A model generated the notes under the pieces. The model was not told where the DNA came from, made no database searches, and worked only from the letters and a program-made list of their open reading frames with translations. Below are positions 38,926 to 45,329 of a stretch of 64,000 nucleotides of DNA, piece after piece. The stretch is from Burkholderiaceae bacterium (lineage in GTDB: Bacteria; Pseudomonadota; Gammaproteobacteria; Burkholderiales; Burkholderiaceae_C): positions 62,001 through 126,000 of the forward strand of contig JAIRVR010000055.1 of assembly GCA_031253795.1 (NCBI GenBank), read 5' to 3'. Within the stretch, counting starts at the first letter, position 1. Each line of letters begins with the position of its first letter. Made by a program: the position numbers and the translations under genes.

Positions 38926-39423
38926 TCAGGGCCGTTTCCAGAAACCCTGGTGCAGGGCCAGCATCTCGTCGCGCAGGGCCGGCACCGGGCCCATGACCTG
39001 CACGGCGCGCTGGCCGCGCGCGAACACTTCGCGGCAGGGCAGGGACAGCGTGGGGTTGTCGGCATGGTCACCGGTCAGCGCCAGCAGCTCGGTCTCCTCG
39101 GCGCCGTAGAGAACCCGGCCGATGCCCGCCCAGTAGATGGTGCCCGCGCACATGGCGCAGGGCTCGAACGTGGTCACCAGGGTACAGCGGGCCAGGTAGG
39201 CGCCAGGGTAGTTGGCGGCCGCCGTGCGCGCCAGCGTGGACTCCGCGTGGTTGACGGTGTCGATATTGCCCTGCTCGGCCAGCACGGTCTCGCCATCGGG
39301 TGCCACCAGCAGCGCGCCGAAGGGGTGGCGGCCCATGGACAGGGCGCGCCCGGCCACGGCCGCGGCGCGCCGCAGCAGCAGCGCGGCCTGGTCGGGGGAC
39401 AGTGCCTGCATGGCCGACCTCAT
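38926..39423 (-). CDS. CDA-fold nucleobase/nucleoside deaminase, copy 1
   Basis: Zinc-dependent deaminase of 165 residues with the catalytic signatures HAE (VNHAESTLAR) and PCxxC (TTFEPCAMCAGTIYWAGIGRVLYG). Size and motifs match small CDA-fold guanine/cytosine-type deaminases (Bacillus GuaD is 156 residues). I start at ATG 39423, overlapping the permease stop by four bases (ATGA); ATG 39411 is possible. It is the last gene of the six-gene purine-type operon. Given the riboswitch upstream, guanine to xanthine is a reasonable guess but not shown. Confidence 0.85.
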   Translation of the reverse strand: MRSAMQALSPDQAALLLRRAAAVAGRALSMGRHPFGALLVAPDGETVLAEQGNIDTVNHAESTLARTAAANYPGAYLARCTLVTTFEPCAMCAGTIYWAGIGRVLYGAEETELLALTGDHADNPTLSLPCREVFARGQRAVQVMGPVPALRDEMLALHQGFWKRP

Positions 39424-40187
39424 TCGCCCTGCGACCCGCGGTGCGCCCAGCCCGTGGTGCGCTTTTCGATGACGCTGAACAGCTCGTACATGGCCATGGC
39501 CATGGCGCCCACCACGATGAGGCCGGCAAAGGCCAGGCCCATCTGCATGGACGATCCCGCCGAGACCAGCAGATAGCCGATGCCCTCGTTGGCGGCCGTC
39601 ATCTCGCTGACCGTGGTGCCCACGAAGGCCAGGGTGATGGCCACCTTGAGCGAGCCGTAGAAATACGGCATGGAGCGCGGCAGGCCGACCTTGATCAGCA
39701 CGTCCCAGCGCCGCGCGCCCAGCACGCGCAGCACGTCCTCGAGCTCGGGCTCCAGCGTGGCCAGGCCCGTGGCGATGTTGACCATGATGGGGAAAAAACT
39801 GATCAGAAAGGCCGTCAGGATGGCCGGCCCCGCGCCGATGCCGAACCACACCACCAGAATGGGCACGAAGGCCGCCTTGGGCAGGGCGTTGAAGGCCGTC
39901 ATCAGCGGATAGAAGGCCGCATAGGCCAGGCGCGACGAGCCGATGAGAAAGCCCAGCAGCACGCCCACGACAATGGCCAGGCCGAAGCCTGCCATGGTCA
40001 CCCAGTAGGTGCGCCAGGCATGGGCGGCGATGATGCCGCTGAACTCGGCCAGCTGCTTGCCGATGGCCCAGGGGCTGGGAAAGATGAACTCCGAGACCTC
40101 GAAGGCCGAGCAGATGAGCTGCCACAGCAGGATGACCGCCAGCAGCAGCACCCAGGGGGCCCAGCGTTCCGCGTATTTCTTGTGCAT
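39420..40187 (-). CDS. ABC transporter permease (SsuC/TauC/ThiX type)
   Basis: Inner-membrane permease of 255 residues with about six spans. The EAA-type cytoplasmic loop is visible as LEDVLRVLGARRWDVLIKVGLPRSMPYFYGSLKVAI. It pairs with the ATPase gene 19 bases upstream and the NMT1-like binding proteins. Family members import sulfonates, nitrate or pyrimidine/purine compounds; context favours a purine here. Confidence 0.92.
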   Translation of the reverse strand: MHKKYAERWAPWVLLLAVILLWQLICSAFEVSEFIFPSPWAIGKQLAEFSGIIAAHAWRTYWVTMAGFGLAIVVGVLLGFLIGSSRLAYAAFYPLMTAFNALPKAAFVPILVVWFGIGAGPAILTAFLISFFPIMVNIATGLATLEPELEDVLRVLGARRWDVLIKVGLPRSMPYFYGSLKVAITLAFVGTTVSEMTAANEGIGYLLVSAGSSMQMGLAFAGLIVVGAMAMAMYELFSVIEKRTTGWAHRGSQGE

Positions 40188-40206: not shown

Positions 40207-41043
40207 TTACTGGTGGATGGCCGTGCCGGTCTTGCGCATGGCGCCGATATGGCCTCGCAGCTCGTGCACGATGTCGGTGAACTCGCGCGTATAGGTCAGC
40301 TCCAGGTCGCGCGGGCGCGGCAGGGTGATGTCGCGGCGCACGACGAAGCGGCCCGGGCCCTTGCTCATGACGTAGACGGTATCGGCCAGGAACACGCTTT
40401 CGCGCAGGTCGTGGGTGACCAGAATGACGTTGAAGCCCTGCTCGGCCTGCAGGTCGCGCAGCACGCACCACAGCTCCTCGCGCGTGAAGGCATCGAGCGC
40501 GCCGAAAGGCTCGTCCAGCAGCAGCATCTGGGGTTCATGGATGAGGGCGCGGCAGATGCTGGCGCGCTGCTGCATGCCGCCCGACAGCTGCCACGGGTAT
40601 TTGTCCTCGAAGCCGCCCAGGCCCACCTTCTGCAGCAGGGCACGCGCGCGGGCCTCGTATTCCTTGCGCTTGTGGCGGAACTGGGAACGGTGCGGCTCCA
40701 CGATTTCCAGCGGCAGCAGCACGTTGTCCACCGTGGTGCGCCAAGGCAGAAGCGACGGGGCCTGGAAGGCCATGCCCGAGATCTTGAGCGGGCCGGTCAC
40801 GCGCTGGCCATCGACCAGCACCCGGCCCATGGAAGGCATTTTCAGCCCCGTGGTCAGCTTCATGAAGGTGGACTTGCCGCAGCCCGAGGGGCCGACGATG
40901 GCGATGAACTCGCCGCGCCGCACCTGCAGGTCGATGGCCTCGACCGCGAAATGGTTGGCGCGCAGCAGCTCCTCGTTGTAGGCAAGCCAGACATCGCGGA
41001 ACTCGACGAAGAATTCGCCGGAATCGGAGTGGGGTTTGTTCAT
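40207..41043 (-). CDS. ABC transporter ATP-binding protein (SsuB/TauB type)
   Basis: ATPase of 278 residues. Walker A is GPSGCGKS (51-58), the signature LSGGMQQR near 155-162, Walker B MLLLDEPFGALD, and the H-loop VTHDLRES. It lies 55 bases after the first NMT1-like binding protein and energises the permease encoded next. Confidence 0.93.
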   Translation of the reverse strand: MNKPHSDSGEFFVEFRDVWLAYNEELLRANHFAVEAIDLQVRRGEFIAIVGPSGCGKSTFMKLTTGLKMPSMGRVLVDGQRVTGPLKISGMAFQAPSLLPWRTTVDNVLLPLEIVEPHRSQFRHKRKEYEARARALLQKVGLGGFEDKYPWQLSGGMQQRASICRALIHEPQMLLLDEPFGALDAFTREELWCVLRDLQAEQGFNVILVTHDLRESVFLADTVYVMSKGPGRFVVRRDITLPRPRDLELTYTREFTDIVHELRGHIGAMRKTGTAIHQ

Positions 41044-41098: not shown

Positions 41099-42124
41099 TC
41101 ATTTCTTGGGCAGGATGTTCAGCTCGGCCGCCGACGGCAGGAAGCTGCCGTTCCAGACCTCGGCCGGGTTGACGCGCGTCTTGGTCGCGTACACGTCCGA
41201 AACCTGGGAGGCCATCAGCGACAGGCGTGTGGGAACGACCTGGCCGAAGCCTTCGGCACGCGCATCGGCGCTGTTGACCACGGTGTCGATGGCCAGCTGC
41301 AGGCGGCGTGTCTCCAGCTGGGTGTTGACGATCCCGTCGCGCTCCTTCACGTAGGCGATGGCGGCACCCGGGTTGGCGATGACCTCCCTGGCACCCTTGG
41401 TGAAGGCCTGCAGGAAGGCCTTGATGGCTGCCGGGTTCTCCTTGATGAGCCTGGGGCTGGCGATGATGGCGTTGCCGTAGAGCTTCACGCCGTGCTCGGC
41501 ATAGGGCATGACGACCACGTCGGCGGGCTTGATGCCGCGCGCTTCCAGGTTCAGCAGCGAGGTGAAGGTAAATCCCGTGATGGCGTCCACGTCGCCGCGC
41601 ACCAGCATGGTTTCACGCAGCGGCGGGTCCATGGCCGTCCACTGCACGCCGCCGACCTGGTTGGCCTTGGCGAACAGCGGGAAGGCGCGCCGGCCCGCAT
41701 CGAACACGGGTGCGCCCAGCTTCTTGCCCGTCAGGTCCGCGGCCTTGGCGATACCGCTTTTCTTGAGCGCCATGACCGAGGCCGGCGTGTTGTTGTAGAC
41801 CATCATGATGGCCACGGGCTTGCCCGGCATGTCGGGGTTGTTGGCCTGGAACTCCATCAGCGCCGCAATGTCGGCAAAGCCCAGGTCATAGGCGCCCGAG
41901 GCCACGCGCTGCACCACGCCGCCCGAGCCGCTGCCGGCATCGATGCTCACGTCCAGGCCTGCGTCCTTGAAGTAGCCCTTGGCAGCCGGCTGCAGGAAGA
42001 AGGCGGCCGGACCCTCGAAGCGCCAGTCGAGCTGGAACTTCAGCGGCGTGGCGGCCTGGGCAGGGGCCAGGGCGGCGCTGGCGGACAAGGCCAGGACGGT
42101 GTGCAGGAACAGTCGTTTTTGCAT
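41099..42124 (-). CDS. NMT1/THI5-like ABC substrate-binding protein, copy 1
   Basis: Periplasmic binding protein of 341 residues with a signal peptide (FLHTVLALSASAALAPAQA). The NMT1 fold is seen in LKFQLDWRFEGPAAFFLQPAAKGYFKDAGLDVSIDAGSGS and VASGAYDLGFADIAALMEFQA. It is paralogous to copy 2 upstream, sharing GLDVSID-GSGS, RVASGAY and EFQA-NP. NMT1-like proteins bind pyrimidine precursors or other heterocycles; the upstream xanthine-type riboswitch suggests purines. Confidence 0.93.
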   Translation of the reverse strand: MQKRLFLHTVLALSASAALAPAQAATPLKFQLDWRFEGPAAFFLQPAAKGYFKDAGLDVSIDAGSGSGGVVQRVASGAYDLGFADIAALMEFQANNPDMPGKPVAIMMVYNNTPASVMALKKSGIAKAADLTGKKLGAPVFDAGRRAFPLFAKANQVGGVQWTAMDPPLRETMLVRGDVDAITGFTFTSLLNLEARGIKPADVVVMPYAEHGVKLYGNAIIASPRLIKENPAAIKAFLQAFTKGAREVIANPGAAIAYVKERDGIVNTQLETRRLQLAIDTVVNSADARAEGFGQVVPTRLSLMASQVSDVYATKTRVNPAEVWNGSFLPSAAELNILPKK

Positions 42125-42160: not shown

Positions 42161-42673
42161 TCAGCTTTTCCAGGCGCCTTGGTGCGATGCCGAGGCCTCG
42201 GCGATCAGCGCCGGTCCTATGCACTCGATGGCGTGGGACGCGGTGTCGAACACATCGCGGCAGGACAGCTCGGCATCCTTCTGGTCCAGGCGCTCGCCGC
42301 GGAATGCGCGCAGGCGCACGGCATCGATGCCATAGACCACGCGGCCTATGGCCGACCAGAAAATGGCACCCGCGCACATCACGCAGGGCTCGGCCGAGGA
42401 GTACAGGGTGGCGCCGGCCAGGGCCTGGCGGTCATGGAGCGGGCTGGCCAGGCGGATGGCCGACAGCTCGGCATGGGCCGTGCAGTCGCCGCTTTCGCCG
42501 TTGGCGTTGCAGGCCTCGGCAATGACCTGGCCGCCCGCATCCACGATGAGGGCACCGAAGGGGCGGTTGCCACGCGCGCGGGCCCGGTCGGCCAGGGCGA
42601 TGGCACGGCGCAGGTACATGCCGTCGGGTTCGGCGAGCCGGGCCTCGGCGGGCAGGCAGACGGTGCTGTCCAT
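42161..42673 (-). CDS. CDA-fold nucleobase/nucleoside deaminase, copy 2
   Basis: Second small deaminase, 170 residues, with HAE (CTAHAELSAIRLAS) and PCxxC (YSSAEPCVMCAGAIFWSAIGRVVYG). It shares the PFGAL core and C-terminal layout with copy 1 but is clearly diverged, so the two may prefer different bases. ATG 42673 lies 10 bases after the copy 2 binding-protein stop. Each deaminase is matched with transport genes in one operon, which implies deamination on entry. Confidence 0.87.
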   Translation of the reverse strand: MDSTVCLPAEARLAEPDGMYLRRAIALADRARARGNRPFGALIVDAGGQVIAEACNANGESGDCTAHAELSAIRLASPLHDRQALAGATLYSSAEPCVMCAGAIFWSAIGRVVYGIDAVRLRAFRGERLDQKDAELSCRDVFDTASHAIECIGPALIAEASASHQGAWKS

Positions 42674-42683
42674 GTCCGCCTCC

Positions 42684-43700
42684 TCAGGCCTTGGCCATGC
42701 GCGCAGCCAGCGGCGGCAGCAGGCCACGATGGAACAGCGCATCGGGCGCGGGCACGGACTTGAGGTCGAAGGCATGGCCGACCTGCTCCACCTGGCGGGC
42801 CAGCAGCTGGGGATCGATATCGCCCAGGCCATGGCGGCGCGTATCGGGCGCGGCCAGGTACTGGGAGGTGATGGCCCAGCGCGCGGCCTCCAGCTTCTCG
42901 TCCAGGATGGGCTCGCGCTGGCGCACGGCCGCCACGGCCAGCGCGGGCTGGGCCAGGCATTCGACGATGGCGCGGTTGCTGGCGCGCAGAAAGGCCGCCA
43001 CCACCGCCGGCTGCTCGGCCAGCAGCGCGCTGGAGGCCAGGATGGCATTGCCGTACAGCTGCACGCCCGCATCGGTATAGCGCAGCACCGACAGCTCCTC
43101 GGGCTTGATGCGCGCGAACAGCGACACGGCCGAATCGTGGAAATAGGTGGCCGCGTCCACATCGCCGCGCACCACGACGTTGTCGCGCGCCGAGAACTCG
43201 GTGGTGGACCACGAGAACAGGTCGGCCGGCAGGTTCTGGCGCTGCGCCACCAGAGGCCAGACGCGGCGCGTGGACTCCACGGCCGCGGCCGCCACCTTCT
43301 TGCCCTTGAGACTGGCGAAGTCCGCCGTGATGCCGCGGTCCTTGCGGCCGATGATGGCGAAGGGCGCGCGGTTGTAGTACTGGTAGACGGCCTGCACGCG
43401 CGCCGCTCCCGGATTCTGTGCCTGGAACTCGATCAGGGCGCTGATGTCGCCCAGGCCCAGCTGGTACGCCCCGCTGGCCACGCGCGTGATCGATGCCACC
43501 GAGCCCGATCCCACGTCGATGGACACATCCAGTCCCTCGTCGCGGTAGTAGCCTTTTTGCAGCGCCAGAAAGAAGGGCGCGGTCTGCGAAGTCACGCGGA
43601 AGTCCAGCGTGAATTTCAGGGCGACGGGGGGCTTGCCCTGGGCCAGGGCGGCCCCGGCACAGGCGGCGGGCAGGGCGGCGAGGAAATGACGGCGTTGCAT
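42684..43700 (-). CDS. NMT1/THI5-like ABC substrate-binding protein, copy 2
   Basis: Binding protein of 338 residues, first gene of the leftward operon. A twin-Arg-like start (MQRRHFLAALPAACAGAALAQ) is followed by LKFTLDFRVTSQTAPFFLALQKGYYRDEGLDVSIDVGSGS. No second ATPase/permease pair is present, so both binding proteins probably share one membrane complex. Its 5' leader carries the NMT1-type riboswitch, 70 bases upstream of the ATG. Confidence 0.93.
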   Translation of the reverse strand: MQRRHFLAALPAACAGAALAQGKPPVALKFTLDFRVTSQTAPFFLALQKGYYRDEGLDVSIDVGSGSVASITRVASGAYQLGLGDISALIEFQAQNPGAARVQAVYQYYNRAPFAIIGRKDRGITADFASLKGKKVAAAAVESTRRVWPLVAQRQNLPADLFSWSTTEFSARDNVVVRGDVDAATYFHDSAVSLFARIKPEELSVLRYTDAGVQLYGNAILASSALLAEQPAVVAAFLRASNRAIVECLAQPALAVAAVRQREPILDEKLEAARWAITSQYLAAPDTRRHGLGDIDPQLLARQVEQVGHAFDLKSVPAPDALFHRGLLPPLAARMAKA

Positions 43701-43770
43701 GGTGGGGAACTCTCAGGCCTCGATCAAACGATGGGACCGGCCGGAGCCAGGGCCCCCGCCGATGCGACAT

Positions 43771-43821
43771 GAGCAATTTCCGGGCAACGCGCCCGGGGGC
43801 ACGTGCTGAACGCTTCTACTC
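43771..43821 (-). ncRNA. Probable NMT1-motif (xanthine/urate) riboswitch ahead of the leftward transporter operon
   Basis: The RNA reads GAGTAGAAGCGTTCAGCA, then a hairpin (GCACGUG...CGCGUUGC), then CCCGGAAATTGCTC. GAGUA pairs with UUGCUC as P1, enclosing the conserved GAAGCGUUCA strand. This matches the conserved core I remember for the NMT1 motif, a riboswitch class reported to sense xanthine and uric acid and named for NMT1-like genes such as the one directly downstream. The match is from memory, not a search; an Rfam covariance scan would decide. Confidence 0.78.
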
Positions 43822-43850
43822 GTTGGGTCTTGTATGCAAATGGCGTACCA

Positions 43851-43982
43851 CCCCCTGAGCCGCTGCGCGGCTTCCCCTTCTCCGCGCGCTGCGCGAGGCA
43901 GGGGGAGGACAGGCGCGCCGCGGGGCGGGGCGCCCGGCACAGGCCCTTGCCCGGTGCACCTCGCCCAGGGCCGCGCCCGTTT
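43851..43982 (+). repeat. Dispersed intergenic repeat, copy E
   Basis: CCCCCTGAGCCGCTGCGCGGCTTCCCCTTCTCCGCGCGCTGCGCGAGGCAGGGGGAGGACAGG followed by GCGGGGCG and CACAGGCCCTTGCCCGGTG. Unlike the other copies it is not next to a stop codon; it lies between the two divergent riboswitches, in or beside their promoters. Confidence 0.75.
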
Positions 43983-44132
43983 CCAGCGCTCCGGCATGCA
44001 TCAGCCTGGTGCATAGCCCGCCAGATGCGGGCAAGACGCCAGGCGCTGGCGCCGAACTGCACCACGATGGAACCTGGCGGAGGGATTCAGGCCGGCGCGG
44101 GCTGGCGCGCTGTTTGCTTGGGAAGTCGGCAA

Positions 44133-44180
44133 GAGTAGAAGCGTTCAGCATGCCGGCCCTGCCGGTGCGGGTCATTGCTC
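44133..44180 (+). ncRNA. Probable NMT1-motif (xanthine/urate) riboswitch ahead of the 2OG oxygenase gene
   Basis: The first 18 bases (GAGTAGAAGCGTTCAGCA) are identical to the leftward copy and it ends in the same ATTGCTC. The middle hairpin differs (GCATGCCGGCCCTGCCGGTGC). P1 here is longer: CAAGAGUA (44130-44137) pairs with UGCUCUUG (44176-44183). Sequence between the two copies is unrelated to each strand's own core, so the shared bases reflect RNA conservation, not recent duplication of the whole region. Confidence 0.76.
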
Positions 44181-44242
44181 TTGAAGCGGGTGGGAAGGTG
44201 CCTGGTGGCCCGCCCTGCCCTGTTCACCACTTCAAGAGCGAT
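44174..44242 (+). promoter_or_regulatory. Candidate expression platform: alternative stem competing with riboswitch P1
   Basis: ATTGCTCTTGAAG (44174-44186) can pair with CTTCAAGAGCGAT (44230-44242) at 12 of 13 positions. The first strand includes the 3' half of P1, so P1 and this stem exclude each other. A further imperfect hairpin (GCGGACCGCCC...GGGCGTGCGGTCCGT) follows before the ribosome site AAGGA near 44306. Confidence 0.55.
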
Positions 44243-44318
44243 GCGCGGACCGCCCTGCCACTGGGCGTGCGGTCCGTCGCGTCCCTTGTCATGGCCGTCG
44301 CGGCCAAGGAAACCGACC

Positions 44319-45329
44319 ATGAACACGCTTGCCAACCCCGTACTGCCATCCGGATACGCCCTGGACGAACTCGCCAAGGAGGCCCGCATGGGCGGCCAGG
44401 GGCAGGAAACACGCTCGCGCGAGGTGCGCGTCATCGACATCTCCGACTTCGAACGGCGCAAGGCCGAGATCGCCGAGGCGATCTGGCAGGCTTCGGTGGA
44501 GATCGGCTTTTTCCAGGTGTCCGGCCATGGCATCGCACAGGCCGACATCGATGCCGCCTTCGGGCGCGCCGAGCAGTTGTTCGCCCTCCCGCGCGAGGTC
44601 AAGGCCCAGTGGCCCCTGTCGCGCAATGCGGGCTGGGAACACAAGGCCCAGATACGCCCGTCCACACGCACGCCCGACCAGAAGGAGTCCTACCAGGTCA
44701 CGCGGCCGCGCATGGCCGGCCTGTGGCCTACCGAGCAGGAACTGCCGGGTTTTCAGCAAGCCACCCTGGCCTTCGAGCGCCAGTGCTGGCAGGTGGGCAT
44801 GCGCCTGCTGTCCTGCTTTGCCCACCAGCTCGGCTTTGACGCCGATTTCTTCACGCGTGCCCACGACCCCGCGGTGCCGGCCTACCAGAGCACGCTGCGC
44901 ATGCTGCACTACTTTGCGGCCGACCCCGCCCTCAAGGACGAGCTGGGCCTGTGGCGCGCGGGCGCCCATACCGACTTCGACTGCCTGACCCTGCTCTTTC
45001 AGCGCGCGGGCCAGGGTGGCCTGCAGGTGCTGCCGGGCAAGGAAATGGAAGGCCAGCAATGGACGCCCGTGGACCCCGTGCCGGGCGTCATCACCTGCAA
45101 TATCGGCGACATGCTCACCCGCTGGAGCGACGACCAGCTGCCCAGCAACTTCCACCGCGTGCGCAACCCGCTGCCCCACGAATACCAGGGTGCGCGCTAC
45201 AGCCTGGCCTTCTTCTGCCAGGCCAACGAGGACGCCGTGATCGAGGGACCGGGAAAAAAGTACCCGCCCATCACGGGCGCCGAATACCTGCGCCAGCGCA
45301 TCAGCGCCAATTTCAGCAATCGGTACTGA
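44319..45329 (+). CDS. Isopenicillin-N-synthase-family 2OG-Fe(II) oxygenase
   Basis: Non-haem iron oxygenase of 336 residues. The DIOX_N part contains VRVIDISDFERRKAEIAEAIWQASVEIGFFQVSGHGI. The catalytic core has H217-x-D219 (GAHTDFDCLTLLFQ), H279 (NFHRVRNPL) and the 2OG-binding R293-x-S295 (ARYSLAFF). ATG 44319 has AAGGA upstream; the ORF-track start lies inside the riboswitch leader. Plant oxidases and fungal thymine-7-hydroxylase share this fold. A riboswitch leader matching that of the purine-transport operon suggests oxidation of a purine or related base. Reaction not established. Confidence 0.88.
   Translation: MNTLANPVLPSGYALDELAKEARMGGQGQETRSREVRVIDISDFERRKAEIAEAIWQASVEIGFFQVSGHGIAQADIDAAFGRAEQLFALPREVKAQWPLSRNAGWEHKAQIRPSTRTPDQKESYQVTRPRMAGLWPTEQELPGFQQATLAFERQCWQVGMRLLSCFAHQLGFDADFFTRAHDPAVPAYQSTLRMLHYFAADPALKDELGLWRAGAHTDFDCLTLLFQRAGQGGLQVLPGKEMEGQQWTPVDPVPGVITCNIGDMLTRWSDDQLPSNFHRVRNPLPHEYQGARYSLAFFCQANEDAVIEGPGKKYPPITGAEYLRQRISANFSNRY

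Follow-up and report, generated by a model that had tools for sequence, protein, structure and literature searches.

Riboswitches of the xanthine-I class, also called the NMT1 motif, are sensors of xanthine and uric acid. The class is described as OFF in the available part of the account by Yu and Breaker (2020, PMC7373994), where an E. coli reporter was used in rich and minimal medium with one leader of Hydrogenophaga intermedia, which could be either arm, and with a single core mutant; the Fig. 5 legend of that paper presents adjacent NMT1 representatives of H. intermedia S1 in opposing orientations. In the same text the authors call it notable that this OFF class is not seen activating genes for the degradation of oxidised purines, and they leave the purpose open. 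According to the sections of Xu et al. (2021, PMC8266621) drawn on here, the crystallised Ideonella RNA has a canonical P2a helix (U-A, U-A, C-G), which belongs to a second shell stacked above the ligand tier and makes no contact with the ligand. Xanthine-II, a variant of the guanine riboswitch, occurs at dioxygenase genes, and its architecture is described as ON in the portion of PMC9295807 used here.

In the window, by which we mean the whole 64-kb stretch of DNA analysed here, a covariance search of both strands against Rfam, as proposed in an earlier note on this DNA, returned two full-length matches to RF03054 (model positions 1-56 of 56), one per strand, both of which exceed the gathering score of 36 (Table 1) and bear out the NMT1-motif identity suggested in that note. 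No other Rfam family matched in the 64-kb window at gathering threshold. The two aptamers lie back to back with 301 bp between them, and the span of 43771-44180 originally given for them covers both cores and leaves off the outer five nucleotides. The exact 18-nt inverted repeat from which the note set out is present, with arms that are 100% complementary and 311 nt apart; by our own arithmetic about 0.03 exact inverted pairs of 18-mers would be expected by chance anywhere in 64 kb. As the note had argued, an RNA and not an operator explains this repeat, which is the 5' core shared by both aptamers, each arm forming the 5' part of a full-length RF03054 match. Both copies have the conserved core (J1 GAAGC, G41 and A45-U46), whose nucleotides give the pocket its shape in the crystal structure, and P1, which had been suggested to be closable on each copy, closes in both with a U-G and an A-U pair at the inner end. 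The leftward copy contains the three-pair P2a helix UUC/GAA. For the rightward copy, in the register as parsed, C19-G42 is the sole canonical pair of P2a, U17-C44 and U18-U43 being non-canonical; despite this, it outscores the leftward copy in Rfam, and its U43-C44 state is conserved in a clade. Both copies stand upstream of genes of the purine-transport or purine-oxidation type. By covariance model, core and gene context, all of them read from sequence, the two window RNAs are confirmed as genuine xanthine-I (NMT1-motif) riboswitches.

Table 1. Positions in the window of the two aptamers, their leader elements and the neighbouring genes.
Feature	Position	Strand	Remarks
Second guanine-deaminase-type deaminase	38926..39426	-	start codon approximate
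ABC transporter permease	39420..40187	-	
ABC transporter ATPase	40207..41043	-	
NMT1/THI5-like ABC substrate-binding protein 2	41099..42124	-	
TadA/guanine-deaminase-type deaminase	42161..42655	-	start codon approximate
NMT1/THI5-like ABC substrate-binding protein 1 (SBP1)	42684..43700	-	
Ribosome-binding region complementary to 3' core and P1 strand of leftward aptamer	43705..43722	-	-12.3 kcal/mol
Weak Shine-Dalgarno GAGAGTT of NMT1/THI5-like gene	43708..43714	-	
Leftward xanthine-I aptamer, transporter arm	43766..43826	-	RF03054, 47.0 bits, E 2.7e-7; canonical P2a UUC/GAA
Exact 18-nt inverted repeat, left arm	43804..43821	-	5' core of leftward aptamer
Rightward xanthine-I aptamer, oxygenase arm	44128..44185	+	RF03054, 55.8 bits, E 1e-9; U43-C44 subgroup, non-canonical P2a
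Exact 18-nt inverted repeat, right arm	44133..44150	+	5' core of rightward aptamer
Segment 1, P1 3' strand and flank	44173..44186	+	CATTGCTCTTGAAG; duplex with segment 2
Segment 2, anti-P1	44230..44243	+	CTTCAAGAGCGATG
Segment 3, putative relay	44277..44289	+	pairs segment 2 or, via CCCTTG, the Shine-Dalgarno
Shine-Dalgarno CAAGGAA of oxygenase gene	44305..44311	+	
Fe(II)/2-oxoglutarate oxygenase	44319..45329	+	336 aa, DIOX_N and 2OG-FeII_Oxy

The NMT1-like gene on which the leftward copy had been placed was found to be an NMT1/THI5-like gene, and the gene contexts of both arms agree with those reported for the class. The one transporter operon contains two different deaminases of the guanine-deaminase/TadA type (38926-39426 and 42161-42655). 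The first gene rightward of the pair encodes the oxygenase, which among solved structures is closest to thymine dioxygenase (PDB 5c3p, E 6.9e-33), likewise an oxygenase and named for a nucleobase substrate; its nearest named relatives are Delftia proteins with 93% identity, and by this identity the window is Delftia-like. A strong Shine-Dalgarno-like AAGGAGG is located a few bases 5' of an internal ATG at the motif KEARMGG (window 44376-44390, and at the same place in relatives), and a shorter oxygenase protein could start at this ATG. A role of the oxygenase as substitute for xanthine dehydrogenase was made less likely: since xanthine dehydrogenase was found in 30/30 genomes searched, 29 over the cut-off (20 of the 30 genomes have a riboswitch match, 10 have none), the oxygenase is not simply its replacement.

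For the comparison with relatives, 322 RF03054 matches were reduced to 293 by merging identical sequences; truncated matches (L144 at 1, L145 at 3009) and loci duplicating a neighbour's stretch (e.g. L124-L126) were excluded. The gene was unassigned for 29 of the 293, a candidate start codon was present for 263 of the remainder, and 256 were kept after starts more than 400 nt away had been set aside; later tests used subsets defined by start distance and redundancy. Low-identity assignments of substrate-binding proteins (SBP) and deaminases were made by BLAST to the window proteins alone. We listed 147 aptamers with E<1e-6 and parsed 144 with a regular expression, excluding the weak match L049 5346 (E 0.4).

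This comparison separates the two arms. Among the named loci, the 3' core of oxygenase-side aptamers reads GGUC (U43, C44) in 74/77 cases and GGAA in 3, and U43, which breaks stem P2a, is found in 0/67 of the aptamers on the opposite arm. In a larger comparison set of 280 distinct aptamers, P2a is paired at 17-44 in 131/131 (75 U-A, 56 G-C) and at 18-43 in 130/131 (119 U-A, 8 C-G, and G-U forms too) of the distinct transporter-linked aptamers, so that the compensatory changes in homologues to which the earlier note had tied its reading are present. Among the 77 distinct oxygenase-linked U43-C44 aptamers, 17-44 is U-C in 61 and G-C in 16, and 18-43 is U-U in 77/77, where the 5' side alone is free to vary because U43-C44 defines the subgroup; in the remaining 39 oxygenase-linked aptamers both positions are still paired. 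Positions 12-15 (J1), 45 and 46 are invariant throughout the 247 distinct aptamers linked to oxygenase or SBP genes, and the ligand-contacting nucleotides are identical in both subgroups. By sequence, the two arms are different subgroups, and the U43-C44 subgroup and the canonical aptamers probably share one kind of ligand, because the ligand-contacting core is unchanged and P2a is off the ligand.

A different reading of these data takes U43-C44 as the sign of a changed ligand preference (towards urate, say, or some other oxidised purine) or of a P2a that is weaker and depends on ligand, so that each arm would have its own response threshold. The uniform U-U at 18-43, as opposed to pairing in all but one of the transporter-linked aptamers, points in this direction, and the median cost of closing P1 is larger in U43-C44 leaders (7.9 vs 2.6 kcal/mol). 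The phylogeny bears on it in two ways: the state is carried by 81/83 rows of one oxygenase clade that extends across Comamonadaceae, Alcaligenaceae, Moraxellaceae, Enterobacteriaceae and Erwiniaceae, with three further U43-C44 rows among deep branches, but it changes only 4 times on the tree of 124 oxygenases, compared with 34.3 changes expected in shuffles, and since it is mostly inherited in one clade, common descent accounts for part of the pattern. As every ligand-contacting nucleotide is common to both subgroups and P2a is second-shell in the crystal structure as presented in PMC8266621, we regard an altered preference or threshold, which would be compatible with either sign of the switch, as a serious contender that stops somewhat short of being probable.

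Turning to the leaders, segments 1 and 2 of the rightward mRNA can form 14 pairs (-21.8 kcal/mol, z -6.9 vs shuffles). They account for a second inverted repeat (44173-44189 / 44227-44243, 17 nt, 88%), absent from the earlier note, which is the anti-P1 element of this leader. The two partners of segment 3 overlap by 7 nt, with p values of 0.33 (2:3) and 0.68 (3:4) that are non-significant for the window alone. No terminator-like sites were found between either aptamer and its own gene; intrinsic termination was rejected, the sole terminator-like site (44093-44112, + strand; 0.5 expected in shuffles) being upstream of the rightward aptamer. A sigma-70-like promoter was not found in 43650-44350.

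Among relatives, an anti-P1 helix was significant vs shuffles (p<=0.05) in 28/84 window-type oxygenase leaders, 16/40 other oxygenase leaders and 17/125 transporter leaders. We then used a permutation test in which each P1 strand was paired with the leader segment of another species instead of its own. For window-type oxygenase leaders (55 non-redundant of 79), the complementarity of the P1 3' strand to the mid leader gave z -8.3, with 0/5000 permutations as strong (reversed-strand decoy, z -2.4), and for transporter leaders (n=60) it gave z -3.3 (6/5000). For oxygenase leaders whose start is at most 60 nt from the aptamer (17 non-redundant of 18), the same strand matched the ribosome-binding region with z -6.0 (0/5000), and the decoys gave z -0.5 and +2.2 (coding stretches), -2.1 (reversed strand) and +0.9 (P1 5' strand). 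The ribosome-binding-region test gave z -2.6 (33/5000) for transporter leaders of up to 200 nt (n=81) and z -2.2 (87/5000) for all window-type oxygenase leaders (n=38). Because the reversed decoy strands were also negative, with z between -2.1 and -2.5 in three tests, part of this signal reflects composition or palindromy. Where the oxygenase gene begins no more than 60 nt away, the Shine-Dalgarno region is the direct partner of the P1 strand and the two vary together, as in L187 (GCUCUUGAGGUC with GACUUUCAGGAGC), L127 (GCUCCAAU with AUUGGAG) and L200 (GCUCUGG with CCGGAGC). Judged by these permutations, the P1 3' strand of oxygenase leaders is co-adapted to the ribosome-binding site or to an upstream relay segment. 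A third segment complementary to both anti-P1 and Shine-Dalgarno, with an overlap of at least 4 nt, was present in 25/36 long oxygenase leaders with significant anti-P1, many of the 36 being close relatives and the mean chance of any overlap being 0.32. Paracidovorax provides an example of such a relay (CAAGGGCC/GGCCCUUG/CAAGGA); in P. konjaci (L056), which is without the intervening stretch, the anti-P1 segment is itself the Shine-Dalgarno. Acinetobacter oxygenase leaders (e.g. L072, L085) carry, before the start codon, a complement and then a repeat of the aptamer's GGGTCAT core (AATGACCC or GTGACCC, then GGGTCA again), a platform that looks unlike the Comamonadaceae one. An aptamer of the oxygenase-arm kind is also present at L103, a locus of Acinetobacter baylyi.

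From these comparisons, membership of the xanthine-I class together with control of translation by competition for the P1 strand appears very probable for both arms. Each riboswitch would control translation initiation of its own outgoing mRNA: binding of xanthine or urate would close P1 and withdraw its 3' strand from a competing helix, and this closure would alter how accessible the ribosome-binding site is. Without ligand, the P1 3' strand of the oxygenase arm would pair segment 2 (44230-44243) and leave segment 3 able to cover the Shine-Dalgarno, while with ligand segment 2 would pair segment 3 and the Shine-Dalgarno would be freed. In relatives with short leaders, one direct helix between P1 strand and Shine-Dalgarno would take the place of the relay.

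The sign of the switch was approached through architecture and ensemble folding. In oxygenase leaders the ON relay is mildly enriched (z 0.34 and 0.66) and the OFF architecture is not (z -0.09, n=58; 0.06, n=25), and in transporter leaders (68 non-redundant, long) OFF and ON are equally and mildly enriched (z 0.31 vs 0.26). In the folding model, the unpaired fraction of the Shine-Dalgarno rises on binding from 0.36 to 0.51 in the window's oxygenase leader and from 0.30 to 0.35 in its transporter leader. The site opens in 11/13 short other-type oxygenase leaders (50% of shuffles), in 18/48 SBP1 leaders of close relatives (20% in shuffles) and, counted as a gain of more than 0.15, in 17/84 window-type oxygenase leaders (20% vs 14% in shuffles); among the window-type oxygenase leaders, the 5 with a short distance did not stand out from shuffles in the fold test. 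Both arms thus lean towards ON in ensemble folding, yet a forced aptamer produces an ON lean in shuffled leaders too, and the direction of the switch is therefore read mainly from the permutation and architecture tests; folding weakly supports ON for the window's own leaders. Since P1, once closed by ligand, keeps its 3' strand to itself, a Shine-Dalgarno covered by that strand should then open, and we incline, with some reserve, to the view that the oxygenase arm is a ligand-activated (ON) translation switch. The ON architecture described for xanthine-II at dioxygenase genes (PMC9295807, in the portion used here) points the same way.

The published description would instead have both copies OFF, with the ligand hiding the ribosome-binding site and xanthine or urate acting as a product feedback that represses import, deamination and oxidation. 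In the E. coli reporter, the H. intermedia representative taken from an opposing pair was expressed less as wild type than as core mutant in both media, a result that may well be right for the leader in question; as described in the available part of PMC7373994, the assay comprises one representative and one mutant and no added ligand is described. The equal enrichment of the OFF arrangement in transporter leaders is in line with it, but its lack of enrichment in oxygenase leaders is not, and neither is the finding that the P1 3' strand has co-adapted with the very ribosome-binding site that binding should free. In the folding calculations, the site becomes clearly less open on binding in 0/13 of the short other-type oxygenase leaders, 1/48 of the close SBP1 leaders and 3/84 of the window-type oxygenase leaders. 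OFF control by both copies thus seems to us possible but rather improbable. Going back to ligand activation of the oxygenase arm, we would put at about an even chance the fuller proposal that the pair is a substrate-induced catabolic switch and not a product-feedback brake, in which an oxidised purine would turn the oxygenase ON and the broken P2a would set a threshold or ligand preference different from that of the transporter arm.

Matches to RF03054 were found in 56/299 genomes of the window's family, of which 34 have a head-to-head pair (59-305 bp between the copies), 18 a single copy and 4 other layouts. The aptamer is present in 76/80 named loci fetched by oxygenase similarity (77 sources when the window is counted), and a head-to-head pair within 700 bp occurs in 61 of these 77 aptamer-bearing sources. 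A phylum sample, which shares members with the family sample, gave matches in 17/398 genomes, and further matches were obtained in 6/149 genomes of the family of G636, 2/289 of the class of G403, 30/200 of the family of G546 and 4/121 of the family of G521. The cassette occurs in Comamonadaceae, Alcaligenaceae, Moraxellaceae and Enterobacterales. The divergent layout, which the earlier note had thought unusual, is already known and common, neither unusual nor new: an opposing pair is in print (PMC7373994, Fig. 5 legend), and such pairs are present in the 34 of 56 matching family genomes mentioned above. Between divergent genes, an exact inverted repeat of 18 bp may look like a protein operator, but conservation tracks the RNA model over 56 positions per strand, with compensatory pairs, the spacing of the matches ranges over 59-305 bp in 34 genomes and 18/56 matching genomes have a single copy, so that we reject this explanation as extremely improbable. 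The large plasmid pSOD02 of Pantoea sp. SOD02 (L098) bears a divergent aptamer pair and an oxygenase gene, and this location is a possible route for spread of the cassette. Within the window's genus, the complete 4.1 Mb genome G128 has no RF03054 match and two other members have matches. In a record of Chryseobacterium sp. 18061 (L092), the oxygenase groups with that of L091, a Citrobacter record from the same series of samples, and the leaders are near-identical; by these sequences L092 looks like a mislabelled or contaminated assembly and not like a Bacteroidota riboswitch.

If the oxygenase arm is ON, the cassette would amount to a purine pathway of the ordinary, substrate-induced sort, and its riboswitch would hint at what this uncharacterised oxygenase, with a thymine dioxygenase as its closest solved relative, acts on. 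If the pair is indeed a substrate-induced switch, the published OFF description would not apply to those members of the class that are linked to oxygenases. With both subgroups of the aptamer present in a single intergenic region, the locus also offers a natural paired comparison that would reveal the role of P2a. Our literature search, which covered text chiefly from outside the subscription journals, found no P2a-defined subgroups and no ON xanthine-I switch; within this search, two things are new, namely that the arms differ in subgroup and that a comparison of leaders argues for activation of oxygenase translation by ligand.

Compared with known systems, the window RNAs are closest to the xanthine-I class itself (RF03054), with which, as far as the parts of PMC7373994 and PMC8266621 drawn on here describe it, they share the whole aptamer, the core nucleotides and the opposing orientation. 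The gene context given in PMC7373994 is also the same (an NMT1/tauA transporter, a pcbC-type oxygenase and a tadA-type deaminase), as is translational control without an intrinsic terminator, which is predicted in the window. Xanthine-II resembles the window RNAs in sensing xanthine and in its location at dioxygenase and purine-catabolic genes, but, in the portion of PMC9295807 used here, it differs in having another fold, a three-stem junction, and potential terminator stems. The rightward copy departs from the Ideonella crystal RNA (PMC8266621, in the sections cited) in having U17-C44 and U18-U43 where that RNA has U-A pairs, and whereas the xanthine-I class is reported as OFF in the available account (PMC7373994), the comparison of leaders would predict ON for the oxygenase arm.
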